From NCBI RefSeq assembly GCF_023061185.1, contig NZ_JAKGAK010000010.1:1-64000 (forward strand): a stretch of DNA of 64,000 nucleotides. The letters are read 5' to 3'. The notes under the pieces are model-generated. The model was given only the letters and a program-made list of their open reading frames with translations, made no database searches and had not been told where the DNA came from. The position numbers were made by a program, and so were the translations under genes. Positions 2,125 to 29,302 of this stretch are shown piece after piece (position 1 is the stretch's first letter; the number at the start of each line of letters is the position of its first letter). The stretch is from Chromohalobacter beijerinckii (GTDB lineage Bacteria > Pseudomonadota > Gammaproteobacteria > Pseudomonadales > Halomonadaceae).

Positions 2125-2190
2125 TTAAAGGTGCCCGAGGAGCCAATCATAGAGACGTCCTGCGCTGCTGGCAACGGGTTGCGTGACAAC
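2125..2190 (-). pseudogene. Orphan C-terminal tail of a polysaccharide deacetylase gene
   Basis: Read on the minus strand, this stretch encodes TQPVASSAGRLYDWLLGHL followed by TAA. That nearly equals the last 19 residues of the deacetylase at 4509–5501 (TQPVASSAGRLYDYLLGRL, stop TAG). A 28-base core is identical between the copies (2159–2186 against 4543–4570). The remaining codons differ mainly at synonymous positions. Nothing upstream of the tail is recognisably deacetylase, so this is a displaced 3' end and not a gene. It forms the left flank of the TonB-receptor gene; the intact gene forms the right flank. Confidence 0.85.
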
Positions 2191-2204
2191 GAGGTACTTA
2201 TGTA

Positions 2205-2231
2205 GGAGGCATTACTTTGCCGCCTTTTTTT
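2205..2231 (+). terminator. Weak stem-loop followed by T7
   Basis: GGAGGC (2205–2210) can pair with GCCGCC (2219–2224) with one mismatch, followed by seven T. It looks like a weak rightward intrinsic terminator, but no gene is seen feeding into it. It may be a relic of earlier gene order. Confidence 0.3.
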
Positions 2232-2235
2232 GTTT

Positions 2236-2253
2236 TGATACGATATAACATCA
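2236..2253 (+). promoter_or_regulatory. Zur-like operator before the TonB receptor gene
   Basis: TGATACGATATAACATCA is an imperfect dyad. Its right half TATAACATC matches the right half of the enterobacterial Zur box (TATAACATTTC) closely; the left half matches in about half its positions. It lies 26 bp upstream of the receptor start, where a repressor would act. The receptor resembles zinc-uptake TonB receptors, which fits. The Zur assignment is inferred from half-site similarity only. Confidence 0.45.
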
Positions 2254-2278
2254 CATAAAAGGTCCATGTAAAATATAG

Positions 2279-4426
2279 GTGTCATCAATGCGTTCAGGGG
2301 AACAGTGTGCAGCGGGTGCACTTATCGGTGTGTTTATTCTGGGTGTGTCAGTAACGTCGGATAAAGCGTTAGCGGCACAGGAGGACGAATCGCAAACACT
2401 CGAAACCGTTACTGTTACGGGCGCTCCATTACCGGGCAACCCGCTATTGCAGGCGGCTGATGTCGATGTGGTCGAGTCCAATGAAATGGAAGCCAAAGGC
2501 GCCATCAACATCGGTGAAGCGCTTGAGTCACAAGCGGGTGTCGATTCGATCAGTACCGGCAACAGCGTAGGAAAACCAGTGATCCGCGGGCTTTCCGGTG
2601 AGCGGATCAAGATGCTCAATAATGGTATTGGGGTCGACCATCAGCAATATGGTGTGCGTCACATGCCGACGACCGATACGTTCCTGCTGGATCGCGTCGA
2701 AGTAGTACGAGGGGCGTCGAGCGTGCTCTATGGTTCGAGTGCGTTGGGGGGCGCCGTCAATATGCTGTCGTCTGAAATCGCCTGGGATACGCCTGTTAGA
2801 GGTGAAACGCTGACCCGCTACTCGAGCAATAATGGCCAATGGGACACCGGAATCAAGGCGACGGGCGGCAATGGTCGGTTGGGTTACTCGCTAGGCCTCA
2901 TCCGTCGTGATGGTGGCAATATACAGACACCCGATGAGACGACGCACTTTCCACCTCCACCTTCACAGGATTTGCAGGATGCGCCCGCTTACACAGGCGA
3001 GCTCGACGATACCGATTTCAATCAAGTCAACGGGGAACTGGCGCTCGGCTTTCGCGACGACGGTGGCGGCACCTGGACGGCGCGTTATTCCCGCTTCAAC
3101 GATGAACACAACTTTCTGCTGCCGCCGCCGGCGGGTCAGTTGCCTCCCTCGGCGGGCGCGGAAGGCGTAGGGCAATACATCGATAATCAGCAACTCGAGC
3201 TATCCGGTGAGAAGCGGGTCGACGGGATTACCTGGAAGCCGAAACTCGTCTGGCAGAACAATCGGCGTCGCTCCAACGCGGGGGGACGTCCGCGCACGGC
3301 CGGGTTCGATGGCACTATCGATGTCGAGTTCGATCAGTACACCGCACGCCTCGAAGGACAGCACGGCCCCTTTGCCGGGCTGGACGGCGGTACGGTGGGG
3401 ATTGAATACACGCACAAGGACCAGGAGTCGCGTGGGACGACCCAGCTATCGCCCGGCGGCACGGTAGATAATATGGCCGCGTTTGCCTTTGAGGAAAAGC
3501 GATTTGGGGATCTCTTGCTGCAAGCGGGGCTACGCTATGACCATCACCAAATCGAAGGTAAAGCTTCCAAAACGGCCAATCCGTCGCAGAACGTTACCGA
3601 TGCCGAGCGCCATAGCTATGATGTTGTGACCGGGTCGCTGGGCGGTATCTATACGCTGACCGACAACCTCTCCTTGGCGGCTAACGCCGGACGTGGCTTT
3701 CGCGCGCCGAGCCTTTTCGAGCTCTATGTAGCCGGCAAGCACGGCGGGGTGGCCGCTTTCCAGCAAGGCAGTCCCGATCTCGACCCGGAAACCTCGTTCA
3801 ATACTGATCTCTCGCTACGCTGGGCATCAAGCACGGCGCGTGCCAGCGCGACCGTCTACCGTAACGTGATCGACGATTATATTTTTCCCCGCGATACCGG
3901 TGAGAGGCGTAGTGGATCGCCAGTATTCGCCTACGATCAGACCGATGCCATATTGCGGGGTGTGGAGCTGTCCATCGAGAAGGATGTCACGTCTCGGCTG
4001 ACGCTTTCGGCGGCGGCTGAGACCGTTAACGGGGAACGGCGCGACAATGGCGACGATTTGCCTTTGCTGCCCGCCGACAACATGCGCGTCGGCGCCCGTT
4101 TCGCGCCACAAGGGGCAGGGTGGGCGCGTAACCCGTATACATCCTTGACGGTTCGCCGCTACGCCTCCAAGGACGCTGCGCCAGGCGAGCCCTTTAGTCA
4201 GTTCGACGACGCGCCTTTTGGCACTGCATCGACCGATGGTTACACACTGGTCGATCTGGGCGCGGGGATCGCACCCCGCATCGGCGAGCAAGTGCTGCAT
4301 TTGGACCTGGCGGTTCATAACCTCTTTGACGAGGATTATCGGGGCTTTCTCGACACCTATAAGGGCTACGCCCTGTCGCCGGGGCGTGATATTCGCTTGA
4401 CCGCTCGTCTGGACTTCGGTGCCTGA
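2279..4426 (+). CDS. TonB-dependent outer-membrane receptor, probably for metal (zinc) uptake
   Basis: A 715-residue TonB-dependent receptor. A signal peptide with hydrophobic core GALIGVFILGVSV is followed by a TonB-box-like ETVTVTG (about residue 44), a plug domain (about 50–165; RGLSGERIKMLNNGI, VEVVRGASSVLYGSSALGG) and a beta-barrel ending LHLDLAVHNLFDEDYRGF…LTARLDF. The plug motif resembles ZnuD-type zinc receptors, but the His-rich loop of classical ZnuD is missing, so the substrate is uncertain. Start is GTG at 2279 or ATG at 2288; neither has a strong RBS. A Zur-like site lies upstream. The gene stands alone, bracketed by duplicated deacetylase 3' ends, which suggests it was acquired. 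Confidence 0.88.
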   Translation: MSSMRSGEQCAAGALIGVFILGVSVTSDKALAAQEDESQTLETVTVTGAPLPGNPLLQAADVDVVESNEMEAKGAINIGEALESQAGVDSISTGNSVGKPVIRGLSGERIKMLNNGIGVDHQQYGVRHMPTTDTFLLDRVEVVRGASSVLYGSSALGGAVNMLSSEIAWDTPVRGETLTRYSSNNGQWDTGIKATGGNGRLGYSLGLIRRDGGNIQTPDETTHFPPPPSQDLQDAPAYTGELDDTDFNQVNGELALGFRDDGGGTWTARYSRFNDEHNFLLPPPAGQLPPSAGAEGVGQYIDNQQLELSGEKRVDGITWKPKLVWQNNRRRSNAGGRPRTAGFDGTIDVEFDQYTARLEGQHGPFAGLDGGTVGIEYTHKDQESRGTTQLSPGGTVDNMAAFAFEEKRFGDLLLQAGLRYDHHQIEGKASKTANPSQNVTDAERHSYDVVTGSLGGIYTLTDNLSLAANAGRGFRAPSLFELYVAGKHGGVAAFQQGSPDLDPETSFNTDLSLRWASSTARASATVYRNVIDDYIFPRDTGERRSGSPVFAYDQTDAILRGVELSIEKDVTSRLTLSAAAETVNGERRDNGDDLPLLPADNMRVGARFAPQGAGWARNPYTSLTVRRYASKDAAPGEPFSQFDDAPFGTASTDGYTLVDLGAGIAPRIGEQVLHLDLAVHNLFDEDYRGFLDTYKGYALSPGRDIRLTARLDFGA

Positions 4427-4508
4427 CATCGTGAGAAGGGTGAGCCGTGCATGCTAAAAGCGCAGCAGTGTGATGCAGTACGATGGCCGATGTCTTGAAC
4501 GCTCTGCG

Positions 4509-5501
4509 CTATAGTCGTCCTAGTAGGTAGTCGTACAGGCGCCCTGCGCTGCTGGCAACGGGTTGCGTGATCGGGAAGCGTGGCAATGCCAGCGGGTCGT
4601 CGCGGTGCGAGAGCCAGCCGGCATGGCTGTGCAGGGCTTCCTGAACGCCGCAGCGCTGGGCCAGTTGACGTACACGGAGCGAGGCTTCCGGCTGTGGATA
4701 GGCGAAATAAGACAACGGGTCGCGGCATAGCACGCCGAGTTGGCGGCGCGAATGGCGAATTTGCCATTGGATCTGATGATCGTTGAGGGTGTCTAGCGGT
4801 GTGGCGGCGACGCCGCGCGCGCCGAAACGCACCAGGCCGTCGCTTTCCAGGCGGCGCACGCTGAACGGGTCGAGCGTTTGGGGGGCGATGTCGAACTCGG
4901 TGCCCAGCGCCGAGCCGAGCCGAACCAGCGTCAATGGAGCAGCTTGTTGCGCGAGTCGTTCGAGGTAGTCGTGCAATGCGTTGCTGTAGGCGGTGCCTGG
5001 GTGGTCGGGCCGTGGCGGTGGGAGCGGGAGCCCGGCATCGCCGAGGCATTCGCGAACGCGCATGGGCTGGGTGCCGTCCCAGAGAATGTCGCCGAGGGCC
5101 ATCCGCCAATCGCCTTGCGAGCGTCCTGTATCGCCCGTACTCAGAAACACGCTGGCCGGCAACGCCAGGCGCTCGAGCTGTCGCAGCGCTACCTCGGTGG
5201 TGTCGCGCCAGCCGCCGTCGAAGGTCAGCGCGATGCGTGGCATCGGGTCGCGATGCAGACGGCGAGCACTCGCCAGGGAGACGATCTGAGCGTGATCGGT
5301 CAGGTGGTCGAGCAGCCGCCGGAAGCTTTCCGGGCCGAGGCAGTAGGGAGCTCGGTGCGGCAGGCGTGCGGCGGCTTCGTCGGGCAATACGCGCTGTATG
5401 ACTAGAATCGCGCTGCGTCCGCGAAGCGGCTCGCTCAGGCTGCGTCGCCAGTGTCCGCGCAGGCGCTGCACGACGTCATGGGCAAGGCTGAGATGACTCA
5501 T
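4509..5501 (-). CDS. NodB-type polysaccharide deacetylase-like protein, catalytic motifs degenerate
   Basis: A 330-residue protein of the CE4/NodB fold, starting at ATG 5499–5501 behind a clear GGAGGG (a longer frame reaches 5579). The fold is recognisable: RIALTFDGGWRD is motif 1, and SYFAYPQPE is the usual FAYPxG strand. The metal ligands look lost: motif 1 is FDGG instead of FDDG, and where HxxxH is expected the sequence is GARGVAATPL, with Arg and Ala in place of both His. It may be non-catalytic or use other residues. The GT2 gene upstream on the same strand suggests a role in surface or secreted polysaccharide. The last 19 codons are duplicated at 2125–2190. Confidence 0.8.
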   Translation of the reverse strand: MSHLSLAHDVVQRLRGHWRRSLSEPLRGRSAILVIQRVLPDEAAARLPHRAPYCLGPESFRRLLDHLTDHAQIVSLASARRLHRDPMPRIALTFDGGWRDTTEVALRQLERLALPASVFLSTGDTGRSQGDWRMALGDILWDGTQPMRVRECLGDAGLPLPPPRPDHPGTAYSNALHDYLERLAQQAAPLTLVRLGSALGTEFDIAPQTLDPFSVRRLESDGLVRFGARGVAATPLDTLNDHQIQWQIRHSRRQLGVLCRDPLSYFAYPQPEASLRVRQLAQRCGVQEALHSHAGWLSHRDDPLALPRFPITQPVASSAGRLYDYLLGRL

Positions 5502-5648
5502 GGCGTGTCCCTCCGCACTGCTGTCGTTGCTCGGTGTGCGAGCGTTGTTGCCGTGGTGACATCCTGTCGCAGACGGCAAGGGTCTCCTGTGAGGGATGAT
5601 GTTGTGATGGCGGTTGCGATATCTATAAGCATATCTCGTTGTCTCAAT

Positions 5649-6611
5649 TTAGCCAGTCAGCCCCGGTTTTCCTCGTCGGCAGAACGTCATCATCGCCACG
5701 CCGGTGGCAGACAACTGCAAGGCGTGCAAGCTCCAGCGATACCAGTAGACGCGGTAGGCCTTGCGCGGCGCCGCTGTGTCGTCGCGCCACGCCATGAGCC
5801 CGGCGGGGAGTGCACTGAAGGTCAAGCCGGCCATCCCGACCCCCGGCGATAAGGGCAGCCAGAGCAGCAAGGCCAGCGGGAGGCTCGTGCCTTGAAGGAG
5901 GGCGGCGGTCACCCGGGGGACGAGAAAACGCGGATGTCGTGCGGTGCTGGGGATGTAAAGGCAATGCCGCTGATGTCGGTGCTGCCGGCGCCACCAGGGG
6001 CCAAGGCGCCGCGGGGCTGCATGGTCGATCAGCAATGGGGCGTCCTGCCAGCAGAGGTGCGCGTGGCAGCGCCACAGACGCACGAGGATATCCAGGTCGG
6101 CGCCAGCTTCGAGGCGTGGGTCATGGCCCCCGAGGCGCTCGTACCACTCACGGGTGACGGCCAATTGACCGGTAGGCCAATCCCACGGGTGGTCGTCAAA
6201 GCCGCGTTGCGTGCGGCTGAGATACCAACTAGCGAGCGGCGGCGGCAACGGGGTGACTGGGTATTGGGCGCAGACGATGGCGTCGGCGGCCTGGTAACTG
6301 AAGGCACGGGCGAGCCCGGTAAGCCATTGCTCCGGGACCTCGAGTGCTGCGTCCAAAAACACCAGTACATCGCCATTGAGACAGGTGGCGCCATGGTGGC
6401 GCAGCGCGCCCTGTCCATGTTGGGGCAGCACGGCGAAGCGAATATCACGTTCAATCAGCAGGCGCTGGGTGGGTTCATCAAGCGTCGTCAGCTGTACCAA
6501 CGTCTCGGTGTGTCCGCTGAAGTGAGCGATACTGCGTGCCAGGGCGCTCAGACAGCGCTCCAAGTGCTCGGGGGTATGGCTGGCGTCGATTAGCAGACTG
6601 TAAGTGCGCAT
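5649..6611 (-). CDS. Family 2 glycosyltransferase with C-terminal membrane segments
   Basis: About 320 residues from ATG 6609–6611; a TTG at 6689 would add 26 residues. The GT-A core shows a nucleotide-binding N-terminus (TYSLLIDASHTPEHLERCL), GDVLVFLDAALEVP at the DXD position, and WYERLGGHDPRLEAGADLDI at the acceptor-loop position. The C-terminus carries two hydrophobic stretches (SLPLALLLWLPLSPGVGMAGL; LHALQLSATGVAMMTF). The second Asp of DXD and the usual ED of the acceptor motif are changed, so activity is not assured. It lies 147 bp upstream of the deacetylase-like gene on the same strand and is probably co-transcribed. Confidence 0.82.
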   Translation of the reverse strand: MRTYSLLIDASHTPEHLERCLSALARSIAHFSGHTETLVQLTTLDEPTQRLLIERDIRFAVLPQHGQGALRHHGATCLNGDVLVFLDAALEVPEQWLTGLARAFSYQAADAIVCAQYPVTPLPPPLASWYLSRTQRGFDDHPWDWPTGQLAVTREWYERLGGHDPRLEAGADLDILVRLWRCHAHLCWQDAPLLIDHAAPRRLGPWWRRQHRHQRHCLYIPSTARHPRFLVPRVTAALLQGTSLPLALLLWLPLSPGVGMAGLTFSALPAGLMAWRDDTAAPRKAYRVYWYRWSLHALQLSATGVAMMTFCRRGKPGLTG

Positions 6612-6796
6612 CGCTGGGAGTGCCTTGGGATCAAAGCCCGTGTCGGGGGAGCTGCCCAACAGACTGGGGGGTGGCGTGAACCCTGGCAATCATCGCTGGG
6701 GCTGGTTTTTCTAAAGCGATACTGACTACGAGCCTGCGCGAGTTCAGCCCTATAGGGTGTGGCGCTCAGCTATCGAGCGGGGGGCGAACATTCTTT

Positions 6797-6813
6797 TGCA
6801 CCAATCTTGTGCA
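6797..6813 (+). promoter_or_regulatory. NtrC-type enhancer dyad upstream of glnA
   Basis: TGCACCAATCTTGTGCA matches the NtrC pattern TGCAC-N7-GTGCA exactly. It lies about 180 bp upstream of the best sigma-54 promoter, an ordinary enhancer distance. A second symmetric element, AAAGTGCCTCTGCACTTT at 6848–6865 (7-bp arms), and AGGTGCACCT near 6825–6834 may be further sites. Confidence 0.7.
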
Positions 6814-6973
6814 TAGGGGTGGTGAGGTGCACCTTTTTAGGGCTCTAAAGTGCCTCTGCACTTTAATGTGGCGCGCCTGGCGCTAAAGTGGTGCTGACCG
6901 ATGCGCAAAGATGGTCTATTTTTTCTCGGTGGATCATGTGTTTATCGAAGGCGCACTTAGGTGGCTCAATGAT

Positions 6974-6989
6974 TGGCATGCCTTCTGCA
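6974..6989 (+). promoter_or_regulatory. Sigma-54 promoter of glnA
   Basis: TGGCATGCCTTCTGCA fits the -24/-12 consensus TGGCAC-N5-TTGCA with correct GG-to-GC spacing. The expected start of transcription is near 7001, giving a leader of about 100 nt before the glnA ATG at 7100. A weaker -24/-12-like element (TGGCGC at 6869, GCGCT at 6880) lies upstream. Confidence 0.7.
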
Positions 6990-7099
6990 TTGCAAAACGT
7001 AAAGTGCATACCCGTGGGCAGCTGCCGGCGGGCGTGCTACAAACGACGCTGAACACGCAAGCAAACGACCCGAGCCGTGGGCTCATAGTGGAGGAAATC

Positions 7100-8509
7100 A
7101 TGTCCGAGAAGACCCTCGCCCTGATCGAAGAACACGATATCAAGTGGGTGGATCTGCGCTTTACCGATACCAAGGGCAAGGAGCAGCACGTCACGATTCC
7201 GGCCGGCGCCGTCGATGATGAGTTCTTCGAGGACGGCCAGATGTTCGATGGCTCCTCCATTGAAGGCTGGAAGGGTATCAACGAGTCCGACATGATCCTG
7301 CGCCCGGAAGATGGCAGCGGTTATCTCGACCCGTTCACCGAAGACGCTACCCTCGTGCTGCGTTGCGATATCATCGAGCCGGCTACCATGCAGGGCTATG
7401 AGCGTGATCCGCGCTCCATCGCCAAGCGTGCCGAGGCGTATCTGAAGTCCACCGGGCTGGGCGATACCGCCTTCTTCGGCCCGGAACCTGAATTCTTCAT
7501 TTTCGACGAAGTGCACTGGAATACCGACATCCAGGGCGCGATGTACAAGATCACGTCCGAGGAAGGCGCCTGGGCGACCGACTCCACCACCGTGGAAGGT
7601 GGCAACCTGGGGCACCGTCCGCGCGTCAAGGGCGGTTATTTCCCGGTACCGCCGGTGGATAGTTTCCACGACATCCGCAGCGCGATGTGCAACACGCTGG
7701 AGGCCATCGGCCAGTCGGTCGAGGTGCATCACCACGAGGTGGCCAACGCTGGCCAGAACGAGATCGGCGTCAAGTTCAACACCTTGGTCAAGAAGGCCGA
7801 TGAAGTTCAGGAAATGAAGTACGTGATCCACAACGTGGCCCACGCGTACGGCAAGACCGCGACCTTCATGCCCAAGCCGCTGGTGGGTGACAACGGTTCC
7901 GGCATGCACGTGCACCAGTCTTTCTGGAAGGACGGCGCCAACATGTTCGCGGGTGACGAATATGCTGGGCTGTCTGAGACCGCGCTGTACTATATCGGCG
8001 GTGTCATCAAGCATGCGCGTGCCCTGAATGCCTTCACCAACGCGTCGACCAACTCCTACAAGCGTCTGGTGCCGGGCTTCGAAGCACCGGTCATGCTCGC
8101 CTACAGCGCGCGTAACCGCAGTGCATCGATCCGCATTCCGTATACCGCAAGTCCCAAGGGCAAGCGCGTCGAGTGTCGTTTCCCCGACCCGACCGCCAAC
8201 CCGTACCTGGCATTCTCCGCACTGCTGATGGCGGGTATCGACGGCATCAAGAACAAGATCCATCCCGGCGACGCGATGGACAAGAACCTCTATGACCTGC
8301 CGCCAGAAGAAGGCAAGGCGATCCCCACCGTGGCCGAGAGCCTCGACCAGGCCCTGGAGGCGCTGGACACCGATCGTGCCTTCCTCACCGAGGGTGAAGT
8401 GTTCACCGATGCGATGATCGACGCTTACCTCGAGCTCAAGCAGGAAGAAGTCGATCGCCTGCGCATGGCGACGCATCCGGTCGAATTCGACATGTACTAC
8501 AGCTGCTGA
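7100..8509 (+). CDS. glnA: Glutamine synthetase type I
   Basis: A 469-residue GS-I, identical in length to the E. coli enzyme; it condenses glutamate and ammonia using ATP. The start ATG at 7100 follows GGAGG. Visible motifs include [10 protein letters not shown] near the N-terminus, the metal-site [12 protein letters not shown], the Asn/His block [13 protein letters not shown], the ATP loop [10 protein letters not shown], and [10 protein letters not shown] with the tyrosine that GlnE adenylylates in this class. It is controlled by a sigma-54 promoter with NtrC-like sites and followed by a strong terminator at 8543–8571, separating it from ntrBC. Confidence 0.98.
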
Positions 8510-8542
8510 TCTCGCACGACGGCGAGTGATCGCGACTGACCG

Positions 8543-9309: not shown

Positions 9310-9347
9310 GCCGATTTGGCGCCTGGCGCTGTCTACCTTCCCCTTTT

Positions 9348-9433: not shown

Positions 9434-9452
9434 CTGCTAACGTACATGGACG

Positions 9453-10580: not shown

Positions 10581-11990
10581 ATGACTGACGTCGCACGCAT
10601 TGTGATCGTCGACGATGACCGCGCCATACGCTGGGTGCTGGAGCGCGCGCTGGCTCAGCCGGATCTCGACGTGCAGAGCTTTGAGCGCGCTGACACCGCG
10701 CTGGAACAGATGCTGCGTCAACCGCCCGATGTGCTACTGACCGATATTCGCATGCCGGGACTCGATGGGCTGGACCTGATGGCGCGCATTCGTGAAAGCC
10801 ACCCGGATCTGCCGGTGATCGTGATGACCGCGCATTCCGACCTCGACAGCGCCGTGGCGTCGTATCAGGGCGGCGCCTTCGAGTACCTGCCCAAGCCGTT
10901 CGATGTCGACGAGGCCCTGGCCTTGGTACGCCGTGGCGTGGCGCATGCCCGCGAACGGCGTGCACCGGCGGCGGTGCCGGAAGGCCTGTCGGCGGAGATC
11001 ATCGGTGAGGCGCCGGCGATGCAGGAGGTTTTTCGCGCCATCGGGCGGCTCTCGCAATCGCATATCACGGTGATGATCAACGGTGAATCGGGCACCGGCA
11101 AGGAGCGTGTCGCCCAGGCGCTTCACCAGCACAGCCCGCGTCATAACGGGCCCTTTATTGCCCTCAACATGGCGGCGATTCCCAAGGATCTGATGGAATC
11201 CGAGCTCTTCGGCCATGAAAAGGGCGCTTTTACCGGGGCGACGTCGCAGCGGCGAGGGCGCTTCGAGCAGTCTGATGGTGGCACGCTATTCCTCGACGAG
11301 ATTGGCGACATGCCCGCCGAGACGCAGACGCGCCTGTTGCGCGTGTTGGCCGATGGCGAGTTCTACCGGGTCGGTGGCCACACACCGGTCAAGGTCGACG
11401 TGCGCATCATCGCCGCGACTCACCAGCATTTGGAGCGCCTGGTCGAGGATGGCCGTTTCCGCGAGGATCTGTTCCACCGCCTCAATGTGATTCGTATCCA
11501 TCTGCCGCGTCTTTCCGAGCGACGCGAGGACATTCCTCGCTTGGCGCAGCACTTTCTGGCCGACGCTGCCAAGGAGCTCGCCACCGAGCCCAAGGTACTG
11601 ACTCAGGAGGCCGAGCAGCACCTCACGCAACTGCCGTGGCCGGGTAACGTGCGCCAGCTCGAGAACACCTGTCGCTGGCTGACGGTAATGGCCTCAGGCC
11701 GAGAGGTGTTGGTCGAGGACCTGCCGCCGGAGCTGCGTGATATCGAGGGCACCGAAAGTGCCGGTGGCGACTGGCGCGGTGCCTTCCGTGAGTGGGCCGA
11801 TCGCGCCCTGGCGGCGGGGCATACGCATCTGCTCGAAGAGGCGGTGCCGGACTTCGAACGCATCCTCATCGAAACGGCGCTCAAGCATACTGGCGGGCGC
11901 AAGGGCGAGGCTGCCGAGCTGCTCGGTTGGGGCCGCAATACACTGACACGTAAGCTCAAGGTGCTGCTGCCGGCGTTGGCAGACGATTGA
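10581..11990 (+). CDS. ntrC: Nitrogen regulation response regulator NtrC
   Basis: A 469-residue sigma-54 activator starting at ATG 10581 behind GGGAGG. The receiver domain has acidic residues in VIVDDD and the phosphoacceptor Asp in LLTDIRMPG (about residue 54). The AAA+ domain has Walker A GESGTGKE, the sigma-54 contact loop GAFTGA, and Walker B GGTLFLDEIGDMP. A Fis-type helix-turn-helix lies at the C-terminus (GGRKGEAAELLGWGRNTLTR). It presumably drives glnA and its own operon through the NtrC-like dyads found in this window. Confidence 0.97.
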   Translation: MTDVARIVIVDDDRAIRWVLERALAQPDLDVQSFERADTALEQMLRQPPDVLLTDIRMPGLDGLDLMARIRESHPDLPVIVMTAHSDLDSAVASYQGGAFEYLPKPFDVDEALALVRRGVAHARERRAPAAVPEGLSAEIIGEAPAMQEVFRAIGRLSQSHITVMINGESGTGKERVAQALHQHSPRHNGPFIALNMAAIPKDLMESELFGHEKGAFTGATSQRRGRFEQSDGGTLFLDEIGDMPAETQTRLLRVLADGEFYRVGGHTPVKVDVRIIAATHQHLERLVEDGRFREDLFHRLNVIRIHLPRLSERREDIPRLAQHFLADAAKELATEPKVLTQEAEQHLTQLPWPGNVRQLENTCRWLTVMASGREVLVEDLPPELRDIEGTESAGGDWRGAFREWADRALAAGHTHLLEEAVPDFERILIETALKHTGGRKGEAAELLGWGRNTLTRKLKVLLPALADD

Positions 11991-12032
11991 ACCTGAGAGT
12001 GAGGCCGATATGTCGGCCGCGGGTGTCGCGTG

Positions 12033-12087
12033 GTCATGGCAACGTCACGGGATCGTCATCGAAGCGTCGCGGAACTGTCATTCAAGC
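12033..12087 (+). promoter_or_regulatory. Five-unit Pho box upstream of phnDCEE
   Basis: GTCA/GTCG tetranucleotides recur at 12033, 12044, 12055, 12066 and 12077, exactly 11 bp apart. PhoB binds such tandem 11-bp direct repeats (consensus unit CTGTCAT plus four A/T-rich bases); the last unit here is CTGTCATTCAA. A usable -10 (AACAAT, 12093–12098) sits at the expected distance after the last unit. Phosphate-starvation activation of the operon is inferred. Confidence 0.7.
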
Positions 12088-12089
12088 GG

Positions 12090-12118
12090 GCGAACAATGG
12101 GCATTACTCATTGTTCGC
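12090..12118 (+). promoter_or_regulatory. 10-bp inverted repeat between Pho box and phnD
   Basis: GCGAACAATG (12090–12099) and CATTGTTCGC (12109–12118) form a perfect dyad around 9 nt. It overlaps the predicted -10/start region and ends 16 bp before the phnD ATG. It could be an operator for a second regulator or a leader hairpin near the ribosome site. Confidence 0.5.
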
Positions 12119-12134
12119 AACCAGGTGACAACGC

Positions 12135-13106
12135 ATGTTCTCGCAGACGCTTTCACTGTCTCGCCCCGTTCTGGGGTTTGCCTTTGCTGCCCTCGCGGGT
12201 ATTTCCACCGCCCAGGCCGACTTCCAGCTAAGCGACCGCTACACCGATGCCGATGGCGACCTCGTCGCCGACATTCCAGAAGATGAATCCCAGTGGCGCG
12301 ATCCGGACACGCTGGTCTTCGCCTATACCCCGGTGGAGGATCCTGCCGTGTATGCGGATGTGTGGTCTGGCTTCCTGGATCATATGGAGGAAGTCACCGG
12401 CAAGAAGGTGAAGTTCTTCCCGGTGCAGTCCAACGCCGCTCAGATCGAGGCGATGCGCGCCGGGCGCTTGCACGTCGCCGGCTTCAATACTGGCTCCAAT
12501 CCGCTTGCGGTGGCCTGCGCGGGCTTTCGGCCCTTCGCCATGATGGCCGCCGATGATGGCTCCTTCGGCTACGAGATGGAGATCATCACCTATCCCGGCT
12601 CCGGCATCGACGAGGTCGAGGACATCAAGGGCAAGACCCTGACCCATACCTCGGAGACGTCCAATTCCGGCTACAAGGCGCCTACCGCGCTGATGGCCTC
12701 GGAATTCGGCATGACTTCCGGTGAGGATTACGAGGTCGAGTTTTCCGGCAAGCACGACAATTCGATTCTCGGCGTGGCCAATCACGACTATGAAGTCGCT
12801 ACCATCGCCAATTCGGTCAAGGATCGCATGATCGACCGTGGCGTGATCGACGCGGATCAGATCGAGGTGATCTACCAGTCGGATACCTTCCCGACGACGG
12901 GCTATGGCGTGGCGCACGACCTCAAGCCCGAATTGCAGGAAGCCATCAAGAAAGCGTTCTTCGACTTCGACTGGGAAGGCACTGCGCTGTCCGAGGAATT
13001 CGGCAAGAACGGCGAATCTCAATTCATCCCCATCACCTTCAAGAAAGAATGGTCGGTGATCCGGCAGATCGACGCGGCAAACGACGTGCAGTACCAGTGT
13101 TCGTAA
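12135..13106 (+). CDS. phnD: Phosphonate/phosphate ABC transporter substrate-binding protein
   Basis: A 323-residue periplasmic protein of the PhnD/PtxB family. A signal peptide (residues 1–25, ending STAQA) is followed by VFAYTPVEDPAVYADVWSGF, MRAGRLHVAGFNTGSNPLAV and GKTLTHTSETSNSGYKAP, the phosph(on)ate-binding loop motifs. Start ATG 12135 follows AGGTGA. It heads the phnDCEE operon under a Pho box. No phosphonate-degrading genes (C–P lyase, phnX/W) lie next to it, so the substrate could be phosphonate, phosphite or phosphate. Confidence 0.9.
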   Translation: MFSQTLSLSRPVLGFAFAALAGISTAQADFQLSDRYTDADGDLVADIPEDESQWRDPDTLVFAYTPVEDPAVYADVWSGFLDHMEEVTGKKVKFFPVQSNAAQIEAMRAGRLHVAGFNTGSNPLAVACAGFRPFAMMAADDGSFGYEMEIITYPGSGIDEVEDIKGKTLTHTSETSNSGYKAPTALMASEFGMTSGEDYEVEFSGKHDNSILGVANHDYEVATIANSVKDRMIDRGVIDADQIEVIYQSDTFPTTGYGVAHDLKPELQEAIKKAFFDFDWEGTALSEEFGKNGESQFIPITFKKEWSVIRQIDAANDVQYQCS

Positions 13107-13170
13107 GCCGGCGGGTAGTGGGCGGCGTCTTGCATGACGTCGTCTGCTGCCATGGTGCTGGGAGGATGAC

Positions 13171-13992
13171 ATGCTAGAACTCCAGCAACTTTCCAAGACG
13201 TATGCCACCGGTGACACGGCGCTGCGGGATGTCTCTTTCGTCGTGCCACGCGGTCAGGTGATGGGCTTGATCGGGCCTTCAGGCGCCGGCAAGTCGACAC
13301 TGATTCGTTGCATCAATCGCCTGGTCGATCCCAGTGGGGGCCGTATCCTGCTCGGCGATACCGATCTCGCTCAGGTAGGGCGCAGTGAATTACGTCGCCA
13401 ACGGCGGCGCATTGGCATGATCTTCCAGGAGTATGCCTTGGTCGAGCGCCTCACCGTCATGGAAAACGTGCTCTCCGGACGCCTGGGGTATGTACCGTTC
13501 TGGCGCAGCTTCACGCGGCGTTTTCCAGGGCAAGATATCGAGAATGCCTACCGCCTGCTGGATCGCGTGGGATTGCTCGAACAGGCCGACAAGCGTGCCG
13601 ATGCCTTATCGGGCGGACAGCGCCAGCGGGTGGGTATTGCCCGTGCCCTGGCGCAGGAACCGGCGTTGCTGCTGGTCGATGAGCCGACCGCGAGCCTGGA
13701 TCCCAAGACGAGCCGCCAAATCATGCGCTTGATCATCGAGATCTGTGACGAGCGCGAATTGCCGGCCATCGTCAATATTCACGACGTGCCGCTGGCGCAG
13801 CAATTCATGCATCGCCTAATCGGCTTGCGTGCGGGCGAGGTGGTCTTCGACGGCACGCCGGCGGCGCTCGATGAAGCGGTGCTCGGCGATATCTACGGTG
13901 CCGAGGACTGGACGGCGATGCGCCGTGAGCACGAAGAAGATCAGGCAGCCGAGGCGGACGCCACGCGGCGTGTGGCGGAGGTCGCACGATGA
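13171..13992 (+). CDS. phnC: Phosphonate ABC transporter ATP-binding protein
   Basis: A 273-residue ATPase. Walker A is GPSGAGKST (about residues 34–42), the Q-loop is [19 protein letters not shown], the signature [16 protein letters not shown], and Walker [14 protein letters not shown]. The extended Q-loop region with FTRRFP is typical of PhnC. The start has a clear GGGAGG. The stop overlaps the first permease start (ATGA), implying translational coupling. Confidence 0.95.
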
Positions 13993-23182: not shown

Positions 23183-23234
23183 CCCGGCATCGAATGTCGT
23201 GGCGCGTCCGCCCCGCTCATTTTCGTTCCACCCC

Positions 23235-23642: not shown

Positions 23643-23688
23643 GAGGGCCTCCTCGCACAGGGAAGGGAAAGTAGCCGACGGAGCGCGT

Positions 23689-24063: not shown

Positions 24064-24152
24064 GCGTGCCTCCTGAATCGATGTGTCGCGGACCTCCATG
24101 ATAACGCGCCATGCCGGTAGGCACGATATCGGTCAACGCCATGCGGTGGGAG

Positions 24153-24830
24153 TCAGTGCAGCACGGCTTCCAACTGTTCCAATTTCGCCACGGCGCTGGG
24201 TAGGTCGCGCATGTCATGCAAGGCGATGGCACCCTCGGGCGTGGTTTCGCGCTCGGGGAAGCGGTTGATGTGTATCGTGCGCATTCCCGCCGCCAGGCCT
24301 GCTGCGACGCCCACCTCGGCATCATCGATGACGACGCAGCGTTCGGGCGCAACCCCCATCTCGCGCGCGGCATGCAGGAACAGATCGGGATCGGGTTTCC
24401 AGCGCTCGATGGTGTAGCCGCTGTAGAGGCGGTCCCCGAAATAGGGGCGCAGGCCGGTGCTGTCGAGGGCGCGGCGAATCTTGTGCTCCGGACCGTTGGA
24501 GGCGACGCAGCGGGGGTATTCGGCGAGCCGGTCGAGCGCCTCGCGGACCCCCGGAATCGGTTGCAACTCGGTGCTCATGCGCGCCTGCATGGTGCGGCGC
24601 ATCTCCGCCTCGGCGGCCTCTCGAGTGGTGTCATCCAGAGCCCCGAAACGGCGCTCCAGCTCGGCGACGATGTTGGCGAATCTGACGCCTCGAAACTCTT
24701 CCATGTATTGGGGCGCGGCGAAGGGTAATCCGGCGCGGGTCAGGACATCGGACATGACGTCGGCGAGAAGGGGTTCGCTATCGACCAGGGTGCCATCGCA
24801 GTCGAACAACAGGCACAACGGATGAGACAT
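24153..24830 (-). CDS. HAD-superfamily phosphatase, subclass IA
   Basis: A 225-residue hydrolase starting at ATG 24828–24830 (longer frame to 24911). Motif I is LLFDCDGTLVDSEP with the nucleophile Asp, motif II is VASNG, and motif III/IV KPDPDLFLHAAREMGVAPERCVVIDDAEVG. It resembles YieH/beta-phosphoglucomutase-like phosphatases that act on sugar phosphates; the exact substrate cannot be read from sequence. No operon partner on this strand. Confidence 0.85.
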   Translation of the reverse strand: MSHPLCLLFDCDGTLVDSEPLLADVMSDVLTRAGLPFAAPQYMEEFRGVRFANIVAELERRFGALDDTTREAAEAEMRRTMQARMSTELQPIPGVREALDRLAEYPRCVASNGPEHKIRRALDSTGLRPYFGDRLYSGYTIERWKPDPDLFLHAAREMGVAPERCVVIDDAEVGVAAGLAAGMRTIHINRFPERETTPEGAIALHDMRDLPSAVAKLEQLEAVLH

Positions 24831-24960
24831 GGTGAAGCCTCGAGGGCATAGTGGATTAAACCGTTCATTGTCCCAAATATCGGCAGGCGACGCCCAGTCT
24901 TGATAAAGCACACCGAGTTTGCGAACGGCGTTTTTAAACGCTATCTAGAACTTTAGTTGT

Positions 24961-24986
24961 CCCTGGCCGTGATAGCAAGGCCAGGG
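24961..24986 (-). terminator. Hairpin left of the TRAP operon
   Basis: CCCTGGCC (24961–24968) and GGCCAGGG (24979–24986) form a perfect 8-bp stem. It immediately follows (leftward) the orphan SDR gene tail at 24989–25009, so it may be the original downstream hairpin of the SDR gene, now serving dctM. Confidence 0.55.
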
Positions 24987-24988
24987 AG

Positions 24989-25009
24989 GCGTTCAAAGCG
25001 ATTGTCCGC
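24989..25009 (-). repeat. Left copy of a 21-bp direct repeat (orphan SDR gene tail)
   Basis: The 21 bases are identical to 29282–29302. In the right copy they are the last codons (Gly-Gln-Ser-Leu) and stop of the SDR gene plus four bases. Here they lie just after the dctM stop with no SDR sequence attached. The pair brackets dctM, dctQ, dctP and the lacI-type gene. Confidence 0.85.
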
Positions 25010-25011
25010 GA

Positions 25012-26319
25012 TTATACGAAGTCCGGCGTCAGCCAGCGCGGGATGGTAAGCACCAGCTCCGGAAAGATGATCAGCAACACGATCACCGCCACCATCACCG
25101 CCAGGTAGATAAGCGTCGTGCCCAAAGCCTTGAGCAGCGGGATACCGCCTATCTTTGCCGAGATCATCAGGCAGAGGCCGTAGGGCGGCGTAATGAGACC
25201 CAACCCCAGAGCCATGACGCCGATCACCCCGAACTGCACCGGATGCACGCCTGCCTGCATCGCCAGCGGCTGGAAGATCGGCGCCAGGATCGCCATCGCC
25301 GGCAGCGAGTCCATGAAGGTGCCGATGATTAGCATTACCACTGCCATGATGATCAGCAGCGTGGTCGGGTCGCTGATGGTGACCCCGGCCATCAGCTTGG
25401 GAGGAATCTGATAGAAACTGATCAAGTAACCGAAGATCGCTGCGCCGACCAGGCTGAAAAGCGACAGCGAACACAGCCGTACGGTGCTGGTCGAGGCCTC
25501 AAGCACGTGCTTGAAGGTCAGCTCACGGTAGACGAAGAAGCCCAGTGCCAAGGCGTAGAGAACGGCGATCACGGCAGCCTCGGTGGGGGTGACCAGGCCT
25601 AGAGTGATACCGCCGATGATGACGATGGGGATCCCCGCCGCCAGCAGGCCATCTTTGCCCGAGCTCATCAGTTCGGAGAACGTCGCGCGCTGGCGCACTG
25701 GGACGTCATAGCGGCGCACGTAGAGCAGGTTGAGCAAAAGTTGAGCAACGCCGATCATCACCCCGGGCAGTATGCCGCCGAGGAACAGCCCGGCGATCGA
25801 GGTGTTGGTCAGCGCGCCCCACACGATCATGTTGATCGATGGTGGGATGATGATGCCCATCACCGACGAGGCGGCGGTGACGGCCACCGCGAAATGGGTC
25901 GGATAGCCTTCACGCTTCATCGCCGGAATCAGCACCGTGCCGACCCCCGCGCTGTCGGCGGTGGACGAGCCCGAGACGCCGGCGAATAGCATGCTGACCA
26001 TGACGTTGACGTGGGCCAGCGCGCCCTTGAAGTGACCGACCATGCGCATGCATAGGGTGATCAGCCGATCGGTGATGTGCGCCGAATTCATCAGGTTGCC
26101 GGCAAGCAGGAACAGCGGCACGGCAAGCAGCACGAACGAGTCCATGCCGTTGTACATGCGCTGGAACATCACCCACATGGTCAGCCGCGGATCGAGAAGG
26201 ATCATGCTGAAGGCGGTCAGCACCAGCGACATGGCGATGGGGATGCCGGCGATGATCAGCACGCCAAGCAGGGCAAACAGCAGCCACGGCAGGATGAAGG
26301 TCCATTCCATCGGCATCAT
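25012..26319 (-). CDS. dctM: TRAP transporter large permease subunit
   Basis: A 435-residue DctM-type inner-membrane protein with about 12 hydrophobic segments. Conserved stretches include the N-terminal FALLGVLIIAGIPIAM, the glycine/serine-rich FAGVSGSSTADSAGVGTVLIP, and the second-half loop GVHPVQFGVIGVMALGLGLITPPYG. It forms the Na+-driven transport channel with DctQ. The start overlaps the dctQ stop by 4 bp. Last gene of dctPQM. Confidence 0.95.
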   Translation of the reverse strand: MMPMEWTFILPWLLFALLGVLIIAGIPIAMSLVLTAFSMILLDPRLTMWVMFQRMYNGMDSFVLLAVPLFLLAGNLMNSAHITDRLITLCMRMVGHFKGALAHVNVMVSMLFAGVSGSSTADSAGVGTVLIPAMKREGYPTHFAVAVTAASSVMGIIIPPSINMIVWGALTNTSIAGLFLGGILPGVMIGVAQLLLNLLYVRRYDVPVRQRATFSELMSSGKDGLLAAGIPIVIIGGITLGLVTPTEAAVIAVLYALALGFFVYRELTFKHVLEASTSTVRLCSLSLFSLVGAAIFGYLISFYQIPPKLMAGVTISDPTTLLIIMAVVMLIIGTFMDSLPAMAILAPIFQPLAMQAGVHPVQFGVIGVMALGLGLITPPYGLCLMISAKIGGIPLLKALGTTLIYLAVMVAVIVLLIIFPELVLTIPRWLTPDFV

Positions 26320-26906
26320 GAGCGTGGCCCTCGCGGTTGTTCGCTGGCGTCGAGCGGCGTGTCGTCGGCGCTCGCCAGCTCGTCCAGTTCGTTAGGGGTG
26401 TTGAGTTCGGCTTCCATGGCGTTCATGCCGTGGAGCGCGGCATGCAGCAGCCGCTCGAGGCTGTACAGAACGATGAATATGCCGCAGACAGTGAACGCCG
26501 AATAGACGTAGATCATCGGCAAGCCGGACGCAGTGGCGCTGCGTCTCAGGCCGGAGATGGCGAAATCCTTGCCGTAGTAGATGAAGATTACGCCCACCGC
26601 AAAGCAGGCCAGATCGCGGATCAGGCGGGTCGCCAGGTCTGCCCGCGTGCCGCGTGGAAACGCCTCGAGCACGAAATGGTCGGCATGATAGACGCCGATC
26701 GCCGTGCCCAGCATGATTAGCCACTGAAAGGCGAATCGGCTGAATTCCTCGGTCCAGTAGAGCCGCGGCAACAAGGGCAGGTTGCGGCTGACGATCTGGT
26801 AGATGATCAGCAGGATGAAGCCCAGCAACAACGCCAGCAGGATCGCGTTGAGCAGGCGCTCAAGCCCTCGGTTGAGCCGTGACAGGCCATGCAGCAGTGC
26901 GGCCAT
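26316..26906 (-). CDS. dctQ: TRAP transporter small permease subunit
   Basis: A 196-residue DctQ-type membrane protein starting at ATG 26904–26906 behind GAGG (longer frame to 26957). Four membrane segments are apparent, beginning LLNAILLALLLGFILLIIYQIVSRN, with the family's WTEEFSRFAFQWLIMLGTAIG. The C-terminus is an acidic cytoplasmic tail of about 30 residues. Gap to dctP is 76 bp. Confidence 0.92.
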   Translation of the reverse strand: MAALLHGLSRLNRGLERLLNAILLALLLGFILLIIYQIVSRNLPLLPRLYWTEEFSRFAFQWLIMLGTAIGVYHADHFVLEAFPRGTRADLATRLIRDLACFAVGVIFIYYGKDFAISGLRRSATASGLPMIYVYSAFTVCGIFIVLYSLERLLHAALHGMNAMEAELNTPNELDELASADDTPLDASEQPRGPRS

Positions 26907-26982
26907 GGCGTTGTCCTCGTGGTTGATGATGAGAGGTGGGAAGAACCGGCGGGGCACCTGCGCACGATGCCCCGCGTTGGGC

Positions 26983-27999
26983 TCACTTGCCCACGTTGAC
27001 GATCTTCTGATGCAACTCGCTCAGGCCCATCTCGTCGATGACCTGCTGGAGCGGCTCGGCAACGATCTCCATCATCCGCTCACGGTCCATCGGGTAGAGC
27101 GTCGCGCCCTCCTGCTTGAGGGTTTCGAGGGCCTCGGCATCCTGCTTGAGCTGGACGTCACGTGCGTAGCTGGCGGCTTCATTGGCGGCTTCCATCACTG
27201 CCTGCTGCTGGCTTTCGTCGAGCCCTTCCCAGCTCATCTGCGACATGGTCAGCAGGCGCACCGTGATGTCGTGCTCGGATAGGCCGATATGCGGCGCGAC
27301 CTCATGAAAGCGCATGCGTTCGATCCACTCGGCCTCATTGAGCAGACCGTCGATCGCACCCAATTGCAGGCCGGTGTAGATCTCCTTCCAGGCCATTACC
27401 GTGGGCTCGGCGCCTAGCGCCTTCCACGCGGTGATAAGCGGCTTGGTGGGGTTGGTGCGCAGTTTCATGCCCTCGAGGTCGTCGAGGCTCTCGAGCGGGC
27501 GCGTGCTGACGATCTGGCGCTTGCCGCCGCCGAAGAAGGCCAGCACTTTCACGTCGGTCTCGTCCTCGATCTTGTCGGCGATCTCGCGGCCGACCTCACC
27601 ATCGAGCACCGCACGCCAGTGGTCGACGTCGCGATACATGAACGGTATCGAGAACACATTGGCGGTATCCGAGAAGTCAGTGATCAGCCCGGGATTGATG
27701 ATCGAGAGGTCAAGTGCGCCGGCCATCTGCTGCTCGAACATCTCGGTCTCGTGGCCGAGCACGGAGTTGCCCATGATGGTGACGGAAACATCTCCGTCAG
27801 TCTTGTCTTCGATCAATTCTTTGAAGCGTTCGGCCCCGAGCTGATAGGCGGTGTCCTCGGTACCGCCATGGCCGAAGCGTAAGTCTACGGCCTGGGCGCC
27901 ACTGGCCAGTGTCATACCGAGCGTCAGCGCGACGATGCCAAGTGCACGCTTGGTGAAGGAGTGGCGAGATAGAGTTGGATCGATCCAGTGCTGAGTCAT
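26983..27999 (-). CDS. dctP: TRAP transporter periplasmic substrate-binding protein
   Basis: A 338-residue DctP-type protein starting at ATG 27997–27999 behind GAGGTGA; a much longer open frame continues to 28686 but overlaps the regulator gene. Signal peptide is TLGMTLASGAQA. Binding-site motifs are present: LRTNPTK supplies the conserved Arg that holds carboxylates, and LQLGAIDGLLNEAEWIE is the family signature. A sugar acid is likely, since kdgK and a hydroxyacid dehydrogenase lie upstream on the same strand. Confidence 0.92.
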   Translation of the reverse strand: MTQHWIDPTLSRHSFTKRALGIVALTLGMTLASGAQAVDLRFGHGGTEDTAYQLGAERFKELIEDKTDGDVSVTIMGNSVLGHETEMFEQQMAGALDLSIINPGLITDFSDTANVFSIPFMYRDVDHWRAVLDGEVGREIADKIEDETDVKVLAFFGGGKRQIVSTRPLESLDDLEGMKLRTNPTKPLITAWKALGAEPTVMAWKEIYTGLQLGAIDGLLNEAEWIERMRFHEVAPHIGLSEHDITVRLLTMSQMSWEGLDESQQQAVMEAANEAASYARDVQLKQDAEALETLKQEGATLYPMDRERMMEIVAEPLQQVIDEMGLSELHQKIVNVGK

Positions 28000-28055
28000 G
28001 ATGTCACCTCGTTCATTGTTGTATCCGCCTCGGGCGGGCTGGCGTGACGCCTCGG

Positions 28056-29159
28056 TTAGGCGTCGAGAGTGGCGTGTGGATATCGTCGATACAGTGCTTC
28101 CCCATGGGCGGGAATGGGGTCGCATGAGTGACGCACTTGCAGGCGTGGTGTCAGGATTACTTGTTCGCGAGCGCCGCCAGGATTGGCAATGCGCCGCATG
28201 GCCAGTCGCGCCGCTTCCTCGCCGATGGAGAAAGGGTGCGTGGCAACACTGGTCAAAGGAGGCAGGCTCAGAGCCGCTTCCTCGATATCGTCGGTACCGA
28301 TGATCGCGCAGTCTTCGCCGGGTATCAGACCCAACCGCTGAAGTCCCAGCATGGCGCCTAGTGCCATTAGATCGTTGTGGCAGATCACGGCCGTGGGGCG
28401 AGGAGTTTCTTGCATCAGTGTCTGGATGCCCTCGAAACCGGCGCGGCGTGTCACAGGTCCGCGCACGATGCCCAGTACCTCGCCGAGCCCCTGCGCGTGC
28501 ATGGCGTCGTGATAACCCTGGTGGCGGGCGCGTGTGGCGGAGTGCTCGGCTTCGCCGCCGAGAAATACGATGCGACGGTGGCCGAGCGCCACGAGATGAT
28601 CCACTGCTTGTCGTACACCGAGTTCGAAATCGGTACCGGCGTAGTCGAACGGGGGCGTACCGATATGGCGCAATACCTGAACGCAAGGCATGTTCCAGCC
28701 CATCAACTGGGTGAGCAGTGCGGGATCAGTACCTTCGGCGGGACATAGCAGCAAGCCGTCGACACGTTGCTCGCGCATGCGCTCCAGAAAGCGCTGCTGC
28801 CGCTCGGGAGAATCTTCGCTGTTGGCCAGGAACGAGACATAGTTTTCGCGGTGCAGGACCGAATCGATACCCGCGACCATGGCACCGAAGAACGGATTGG
28901 CGATGTCGTAGACGACCACGCCGAGGGTAAAGGTATGACTGGCGCGTAGCGCTGCCGCTCCACGGTTGTAGACATATCCCAGAGCTTTGATTGAGGCCTG
29001 CACCCGCGTTCGAGTGGAATCCGCCACTAGCGGGCTTTCGCGCAGTACCAGCGAGACCGTAGAGCGTGAGACTCCGGCATGGGCCGCGATGTCCTGCAGC
29101 GTGACGCTTTGACGCGCGCTCTCGCGTGGGGATGATGGGGGCTCGGAGGATTCGGCCAT
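28056..29159 (-). CDS. LacI-family transcriptional regulator
   Basis: A 367-residue repressor: LacI helix-turn-helix VTLQDIAAHAGVSRSTVSLVLR (about 19–40), hinge NRGAAALRASHT, and a periplasmic-binding-protein-like effector domain (FTLGVVVYDIANPFFG onward). It lies directly upstream of dctPQM and probably controls it and the adjacent sugar-acid genes. A TTTGGAT/ATCCAAA dyad lies just upstream of its start. The C-terminus is slightly longer than usual. Confidence 0.92.
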   Translation of the reverse strand: MAESSEPPSSPRESARQSVTLQDIAAHAGVSRSTVSLVLRESPLVADSTRTRVQASIKALGYVYNRGAAALRASHTFTLGVVVYDIANPFFGAMVAGIDSVLHRENYVSFLANSEDSPERQQRFLERMREQRVDGLLLCPAEGTDPALLTQLMGWNMPCVQVLRHIGTPPFDYAGTDFELGVRQAVDHLVALGHRRIVFLGGEAEHSATRARHQGYHDAMHAQGLGEVLGIVRGPVTRRAGFEGIQTLMQETPRPTAVICHNDLMALGAMLGLQRLGLIPGEDCAIIGTDDIEEAALSLPPLTSVATHPFSIGEEAARLAMRRIANPGGAREQVILTPRLQVRHSCDPIPAHGEALYRRYPHATLDA

Positions 29160-29175
29160 GGCTGGTTTGCCTCGT

Positions 29176-29191
29176 TTTGGATTGATCCAAA
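29176..29191 (-). promoter_or_regulatory. Putative operator upstream of the LacI-family gene
   Basis: TTTGGATTGATCCAAA has perfect 7-bp arms around TG and lies 17 bp from the regulator start. A shorter related dyad TTTGGTCCAA occurs near 29240. LacI proteins often bind such short dyads and autoregulate; the match is structural only. Confidence 0.5.
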
Positions 29192-29281
29192 TATGAGAGT
29201 CAGCCTAGAAGAGTCACCGCCTCGTCCCCATTCGCCTTTGGTCCAAGTGCGACCAGAGTCGTAGGTGGGATGCGTTAGAAC

Positions 29282-29302
29282 GCGTTCAAAGCGATTGTCC
29301 GC
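29282..29302 (-). repeat. Right copy of a 21-bp direct repeat (3' end of the SDR gene)
   Basis: It contains the final codons and stop of the SDR gene (stop at 29286–29288) and is identical to 24989–25009, 4.29 kb away. See the left copy for the bracketing pattern. Confidence 0.85.

Follow-up and report, generated by a model that had tools for sequence, protein, structure and literature searches.

How did two different transport modules come to lie, each bounded by a short direct repeat, against the 3' ends of two resident genes in Chromohalobacter beijerinckii? The question arises in a stretch of 64,000 nucleotides (NCBI RefSeq assembly GCF_023061185.1, contig NZ_JAKGAK010000010.1, positions 1 to 64,000), hereafter the window, in which a TonB-dependent receptor gene lies beside a polysaccharide deacetylase gene (PDA; block 1) and a LacI-TRAP module lies beside a short-chain dehydrogenase gene (SDR; block 2). 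Both blocks are probably footprints of homology-anchored additive insertion at a gene 3' end, or 3'-end displacement, which has the look of a chance product of ordinary DNA recombination, and not of something done by a dedicated mobile element. Block 1 fits such an insertion directly; block 2 requires added steps.

The two repeats are the strongest of the four repeat families found in a search of positions 1-32000 of the window, the remaining two families being 18-19 nt long with 89-94% identity. In block 1 the repeat (2126-2186 / 4510-4570) covers 61 nt with 79% identity overall, its final 28 nt being identical (2159-2186 / 4543-4570), and in block 2 (24989-25009 / 29282-29302) it covers 21 nt with 100% identity. 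The right copies include the 3' ends of the minus-strand PDA and SDR genes, and between the copies lie the receptor gene in block 1 and DctM, DctQ, DctP and LacI (25012-29159) in block 2. The repeat search thus confirms, for both blocks, the arrangement described by a first-pass annotation of this DNA, in which the gene to the right is intact and on the minus strand while an orphan copy of its 3' terminus lies to the left. Border-alignment scores reach 60 for block 1 and 42 for block 2, against 28 at the 99th percentile of mismatched borders; the 99.9th percentile and the maximum of the mismatched pairs are, however, 112 and 146.

In 8 of the 10 genomes of the genus, PDA and BipA adjoin each other, and the receptor sits between them in the window genome and in G008. 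Three loci from other genera (G022, G029, and G047) are likewise empty at the PDA-BipA junction. From the start of the repeat onward, the PDA orphan is 100% identical over 312 bp to the uninterrupted site of G005, while the end attached to the gene is divergent (LYDYLLGRL vs. the native LYDWLLGHL), the sequence switching in, or just after, the 28-bp identical core. The insertion has displaced the native end, which now forms the orphan, and a divergent one is attached to the gene. Regarding the receptor, it is rare (3/250 family genomes at E<=1e-100, window genome counted), with relatives found in Kushneria, Salinisphaera, Arhodomonas and others; the inserts of the window genome and of G008 align, together with their flanks, over 3.7 kb at 85%.

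The clearest donor case is the glyoxalase gene of G006, another Chromohalobacter genome. Before the switch this gene is 92-100% like the native G007 gene (40-base windows), and from the switch to the stop it is 92-100% like that of G029, a genome of another genus, as opposed to 50-82% for G007. The orphan, starting with its first base, is 99% native. In G029 the glyoxalase gene and the cassette are contiguous and 87% identical over 5.5 kb, with no second glyoxalase gene end in 8 kb of that locus. Among the matches listed from 275 genomes searched, those in G029, G047, G065, G258, and G220 span both the gene end and the cargo. G008 harbors the same cassette at the same gene, with a foreign end of only about the last 25 bases, so the two genomes switch at different points of the gene. 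At its other end, the G008 insert passes into sequence that matches the 3' tail of the LigB-family gene next in G029 at 45/58 positions (score 51, compared with no more than 25 in shuffles), and the G008 orphan has an upstream fragment with an internal gap that is native-like (52/57, vs. 39/54 for the donor). Given this overrun into an adjoining donor gene, the cargo and its limits resemble arbitrary segments of a donor chromosome, and the undescribed class of small cassette suggested by the first-pass annotation is not borne out.

Single-crossover (Campbell) integration of circularised cargo, possibly excised later via the same direct repeats, would also leave a target that loses nothing, with one repeat copy on either side and the insert flanked by a partial target duplication. 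In Escherichia coli, according to the available portion of PMC3240628, 56 of 60 clones analysed were duplications, 14 of them sequenced at 109-950 bp, and these were interpreted as the outcome of single crossovers by molecules missing some of their homology; such circles were also proposed for rhs (Jackson et al., 2009, PMC2935791, available portion). However, a circle predicts donor-like gene sequence at the start of the orphan, where the G006 glyoxalase orphan is native, and the upstream orphan fragment of G008 is native-like too. This route is considered unlikely, and the circular intermediates of the first-pass annotation find no confirmation, the native glyoxalase orphan fitting a plain foreign circle poorly. 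Tandem duplication of the gene followed by decay, with the cargo arriving by unrelated rearrangements, would account for orphans that are pieces of the neighboring gene. Yet the genomes with empty sites each have a single, uninterrupted native end, followed downstream by the same flank, and at the glyoxalase locus, where the attached end of G006 matches another genus, tandem duplication is refuted; for the set of loci as a whole it is highly improbable.

Recurrence was assessed over 1,661,752 bases from six Chromohalobacter genomes (the window; 400 kb each of G005, G001, and G004; 238 kb of G006; 160 kb of G007), the stretches being only partly syntenic. An insertion row was defined as at least 700 bp in pairwise chains, the empty site having no more than 60 unmatched bases. 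Among the 80 rows found, 17 had a border local-alignment score of at least 30 (99th-percentile null 28); four of these were dropped as CRISPR arrays, and two, at a gene presumed to be MFS-like, were dropped from the insertion count with their match off the border. The 11 rows left represent nine loci with in-register repeats, namely PDA, SDR, BipA, the glyoxalase gene, an HTH-cupin gene, an RNA methyltransferase gene, a second SDR ending DYDE, a convergent RF-1-domain/ChaC pair, and a 2-hydroxyacid dehydrogenase with an ACT domain, where the duplication consists of the terminator past the stop only. All nine are at or just past gene 3' ends (two-sided p 0.004 vs. one half). When 25 gene-end rows were compared with relatives, nine rows had an empty site in at least one relative. 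They make up seven loci (HTH-cupin, BipA, glyoxalase, PDA, SDR, DYDE-SDR, and the RF-1/ChaC pair), at which the enclosed genes are strain-variable, as opposed to core in all strains. Empty sites at the RNA methyltransferase, where the flank test gave 1.5-1.8 kb in relatives, and at the ACT-domain dehydrogenase rest on pairwise chains. No recipient DNA was deleted at PDA, BipA, or the glyoxalase gene, all three showing a duplicated target and a retained downstream flank. No shared junction motif was seen by eye. As for tRNA targets, the window has no tRNA gene, and none of the four tRNAs in the other stretches lies at a repeat-flanked insert.

Between the repeats of the seven loci outside the window, 29 open reading frames were found, of which 27 were scanned against Pfam (the two left out cross stretch ends). 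Most are transporters, enzymes, and regulators; four of those scanned had no Pfam match. Transport functions comprise exporter parts (ABC, MacB/FtsX, OEP, HlyD), a dicarboxylate symporter, LysE, and a TRAP DctP, and the regulators are of GntR, AraC, LysR, and HTH types. More mixed cargo includes an alanine symporter together with a fumarase-type lyase and an asparaginase, an Asp/Glu racemase, an SDR, and a GGDEF protein. In one gene set, an aromatic amino acid lyase is found with an amidohydrolase, an arginase-family enzyme, and transporters. This set, with a UTRA/GntR regulator, occupies L175-L176 (G001:C1, about 1,573,840-1,583,357), is flanked by a duplicated terminator, and is missing at the same site in G005; it is taken here to be histidine-utilisation-like. 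No integrase or transposase family was matched by the 27 scanned frames, nor in the two window blocks, in keeping with the proposal that insertion proceeds without an encoded recombinase.

An additive outcome in which the gene's 3' end is replaced is what an integrase target classically looks like. The loci could then be remnants of site-specific integration, attP having restored the gene 3' end and the integrase having been lost or acting in trans. Several observations speak against this. Repeat cores differ in sequence between loci while the same geometry recurs at different genes, so that, as the first-pass annotation had it, this is not one fixed att site; the glyoxalase switch point is not the same in G006 and G008; one insert end lies in a neighboring gene of the donor; and no integrase family was matched in the scans just described. 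This explanation is disfavoured and must be regarded as very improbable.

An unbiased search took in gene ends in general. The 3' segment of each called gene was sought within 15 kb downstream, with three mirrored controls that covered 5' ends and the wrong side; paralogues were removed at an upstream-extension score of at least 60, matches with fewer than 15 coding bases were discarded, and a score of at least 38 was required. Hits were obtained for 16/1339 gene ends, compared with 3/1334, 1/1332, and 2/1337 in the controls (pooled 6/4003; Fisher p 3e-6). Without filters, at a score of at least 44, the count was 27/1339 against 6, 5, and 3. The 16 hits correspond to 14 genes, not all of which are proven insertions, and one is a 19-base match that may be due to chance. 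An excess of such repeats, whose absence the first-pass annotation had named as refuting its proposal, is therefore present over these controls. Small extra sets were scored on non-paralogous hits at a score of at least 38: other Halomonadaceae genera (288 kb) gave 2 hits vs. 1, 2, and 1 in the controls, and Salinisphaera and relatives (107 kb) 1 hit vs. 0, 0, and 0, both too few to judge.

Block 2 has a more intricate history. LacI-TRAP is present beside SDR in 5 of the 10 genus genomes; four have SDR alone, and G003 has LacI-TRAP without SDR. Outside the SDR-bearing genomes, the order Hdh-LacI-DctPQM-HAD without SDR (Hdh being a D-2-hydroxyacid dehydrogenase) was found in 11/11 loci examined, i.e., 10 from the 48 genomes of other genera with a match, plus G003. 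In turn, an SDR match at E<=1e-80 occurs in 9/10 genus genomes vs. 1/240 other family genomes. Because the SDR-less order is found at all 11 loci and SDR is nearly genus-restricted, LacI-TRAP is the ancestral neighbor at this locus and SDR the newcomer. The history of block 2 is therefore one of loss, regain, or both, and not a simple gain. Accordingly, the first-pass reading of an inserted accessory block is straightforward for block 1 and does not apply in that form to block 2. Within window 29286-31232, SDR itself looks like an earlier insertion at the Hdh 3' end: the post-Hdh sequence of G003, terminator included, recurs in G006 just upstream of LacI, after SDR. In each of the five filled genomes a short orphan SDR end (about 13-21 bp) follows DctM, and no SDR-end-like sequence was seen when the G003 region after DctM was read by eye.

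Two accounts of block 2 can be given. The ancestral LacI-TRAP may have been deleted between short direct repeats, producing the SDR-only genomes with no insertion at the SDR 3' end at all. The ancestral order at all loci outside SDR-bearing genomes, the short repeats flanking LacI-TRAP in the five filled genomes, and a TAA-type SDR stop that meets the orphan-side flank in G007 all agree with such a deletion, which is a plausible account, at something short of an even chance. It leaves the SDR 3' end after DctM unexplained, however, given that G003 seems to have no such sequence there. With 3'-end displacement, SDR would have entered the ancestral Hdh-LacI-TRAP locus, some lineages would then have lost LacI-TRAP, and finally LacI-TRAP would either have come back at the SDR 3' end or have dropped out once more across the short repeat. 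Among the filled genomes, DctP is more variable (58-87% amino acid identity to that of the window) than DctM (87-98%) and DctQ (72-95%).

With regard to mechanism, 3'-end displacement would begin with a piece of foreign chromosome that starts inside a homologue of the resident gene and continues into the adjoining cargo. This piece would recombine with the 3' part of the resident gene, presumably by RecA-type recombination after entering the cell by uptake or another route, such that the gene would keep its body and gain the donor 3' end together with the cargo. The other end of the piece would attach to the resident gene with no extended homology, either at that same point or upstream of it; nothing would thereby be lost, and the native 3' end would be pushed downstream as an orphan. 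Break repair or sister-chromosome bridging with end joining are candidate routes, as is single crossover of a recircularised fragment. Events at 3' ends probably survive because the gene and its promoter stay intact there.

A number of observations weigh against homology-anchored insertion. Because orthologous genes enter the counts of more than one genome, the gene-end p values are optimistic. Nine 50-kb stretches of E. coli K-12 yielded 0/321, which differs from the genus only at p 0.053, and further loci from the genus itself (144 kb), a set too small to judge, yielded 1 hit vs. 1, 2, and 0 in the controls. Of the 25 gene-end rows, 8 show the spacing without an empty site in the relatives compared and 8 are not comparable. 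At BipA, the RNA methyltransferase, and HTH-cupin, the two copies are 95-97% alike, too close to tell which is foreign or whether the orphan starts with donor-type sequence; moreover, both BipA copies share changes seen in no other compared genome. At the terminator of the G001 ACT-domain dehydrogenase, it is the attached copy that matches the native one and the orphan that has diverged. For block 1, the attached PDA ends of the window genome and G008 are just 69% alike (45 bases), and a comparison with 20 PDA ends of other genera (6 out of register; best 69%) yielded no donor for the PDA end. G006 and G008 share their glyoxalase cargo and may descend from one insertion, in which case the difference in where they switch may reflect later conversion. 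Of two donor searches, one found gene and cargo adjacent; in the other, on the DYDE-SDR with its GGDEF insert (G007), the other-genus matches listed cover the cargo only or the gene only. Finally, the ComEC family is present but also occurs in E. coli, and is not diagnostic of competence.

Table 1. Features of the two blocks and their neighbors in the window.
Feature	Position	Strand	Basis or remark
BipA/TypA GTPase gene	45..1856	-	Pfam BipA_C, GTP_EFTU; left neighbor of block 1
Orphan PDA 3' end (displaced native end)	2126..2186	-	Repeat search; identity to G005 uninterrupted site
28-bp identical core, left copy	2159..2186	.	Repeat search
TonB-dependent receptor gene, inserted, 715 aa	2279..4426	+	Pfam TonB_dep_Rec_b-barrel, Plug
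Polysaccharide deacetylase gene (PDA), intact, last codons replaced	4509..5579	-	Pfam Polysacc_deac_1
Substitute PDA 3' end (LYDYLLGRL*)	4509..4542	-	Divergent vs. native LYDWLLGHL*
28-bp identical core, right copy	4543..4570	.	Native-to-divergent switch inside core or at its end
HAD-family phosphatase gene, left neighbor of block 2	24153..24911	-	Pfam Hydrolase/HAD_2
Orphan SDR 3' end, between DctM and native terminator	24989..25009	-	Repeat search
TRAP transporter DctM	25012..26319	-	Pfam DctM
TRAP transporter DctQ	26316..26957	-	Pfam DctQ
TRAP solute-binding DctP	26983..27950	-	Start approximate, mechanical ORF (open reading frame) to 28686; Pfam DctP on ORF residues 271-548
LacI-family regulator	28056..29159	-	Pfam LacI, Peripla_BP_3
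SDR stop-codon region, gene-attached 21-bp repeat copy	29282..29302	-	Repeat search
Short-chain dehydrogenase (SDR), newcomer to locus	29286..30116	-	Pfam adh_short_C2
D-2-hydroxyacid dehydrogenase (Hdh), ancestral LacI neighbor	30210..31232	-	Pfam 2-Hacid_dh_C

BipA, the left neighbor of block 1, shows further variation in the genus. In G003, about 2.7 kb of extra sequence is found at its 3' end (L046, about 10,583-13,265), and this end may therefore have been a target on more than one occasion. CRISPR arrays with the repeat TTTCTGAGCTGCCTGGGCGGCAGCGCAC, presumably of subtype I-F, lie a few kb past BipA at L191 (G004:C4), L204 (G006:C45), and L218 (G007:C24), and vary in length among the genomes of the genus.

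On the whole, the first-pass interpretation stands as regards recurrence, concentration at 3' ends, the excess of repeats, strain variability, and the lack of a recombinase match in the frames scanned, and is not supported in its stated form as regards the cassette class, the circles, and a simple gain of block 2. Many accessory regions have no recognisable mobile element, and for them recombination at flanking core genes has been inferred statistically (PMC5635113, available portion). An orphan native 3' end beside a foreign-tailed gene would be a molecular footprint of single events, countable in any collection of genomes; it identifies both the anchor gene and the direction of transfer, and can lead to the donor locus, as happened with the glyoxalase cassette. 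It is tempting to go further and to view gene 3' ends as a general, recombinase-free entry port for foreign operons, although this is doubtful at present. If true, any gene whose homologue neighbors useful cargo in another genus could serve as an anchor, the leftover direct repeat would let ordinary recombination excise the cargo and pass it on, and a large share of operon-sized accessory gain in these halophiles would take place without a mobile element.

Several known systems resemble these loci in part; the sources below are cited for their available portions. Small variable segments are flanked by direct repeats in 10-18% of cases, and illegitimate recombination has been discussed for them (PMC2884548). 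Unlike in the present loci, these repeats are mostly <30 bp and treated as deletion sites, no link to gene 3' ends being described in that portion. In integration hotspots poor in mobile genetic elements, accessory genes likewise enter via homologous recombination at core genes (Oliveira et al., 2017, PMC5635113), whereas the inference there is statistical, from the flanking core genes, with no orphan 3'-end footprint described in the part available. Homology-facilitated illegitimate recombination captures foreign DNA through one homologous and one illegitimate junction (PMC3240628). In the present loci, the homologous junction is represented by the glyoxalase switch within homologous coding sequence and by the PDA switch at the 28-bp core, and the non-homologous one at a single locus, in G008, where the tail of the donor's next gene is followed by a native-like glyoxalase fragment. 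The general product of that process deletes recipient DNA (PMC3240628); here, in contrast, the target is duplicated and nothing is lost.

Close parallels are found at toxin loci. In rhs C-terminal displacement (Jackson et al., 2009, PMC2935791), as here, an intact gene is followed by downstream orphan 3' fragments of the same gene, the new 3' end is laterally acquired, no site-specific integrase is known, and homology limits the insertions. In rhs, however, the new C-terminus is non-homologous and is itself the cargo (PMC2935791), whereas in the present loci the C-terminus remains homologous, ordinary genes are targeted, and the cargo serves transport or catabolism. Displacement of type VI secretion system (T6SS) effector-immunity modules in Vibrio cholerae similarly combines a one-sided homology anchor, an additive outcome, and a downstream orphan (Kirchberger et al., 2017, PMC5361080), and has been proposed to be akin to homology-facilitated illegitimate recombination (PMC5361080). 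It differs in concerning effector-immunity modules, with no gene-end footprint at housekeeping genes described in the available text (PMC5361080); nor did the literature searches made, in the text available from them, turn up a description of such a footprint. By analogy, what is seen in Chromohalobacter would be the known tail-displacement event of rhs and T6SS loci at ordinary genes with metabolic cargo, which suggests that gene-tail displacement extends from toxin loci to ordinary genes and metabolic operons.

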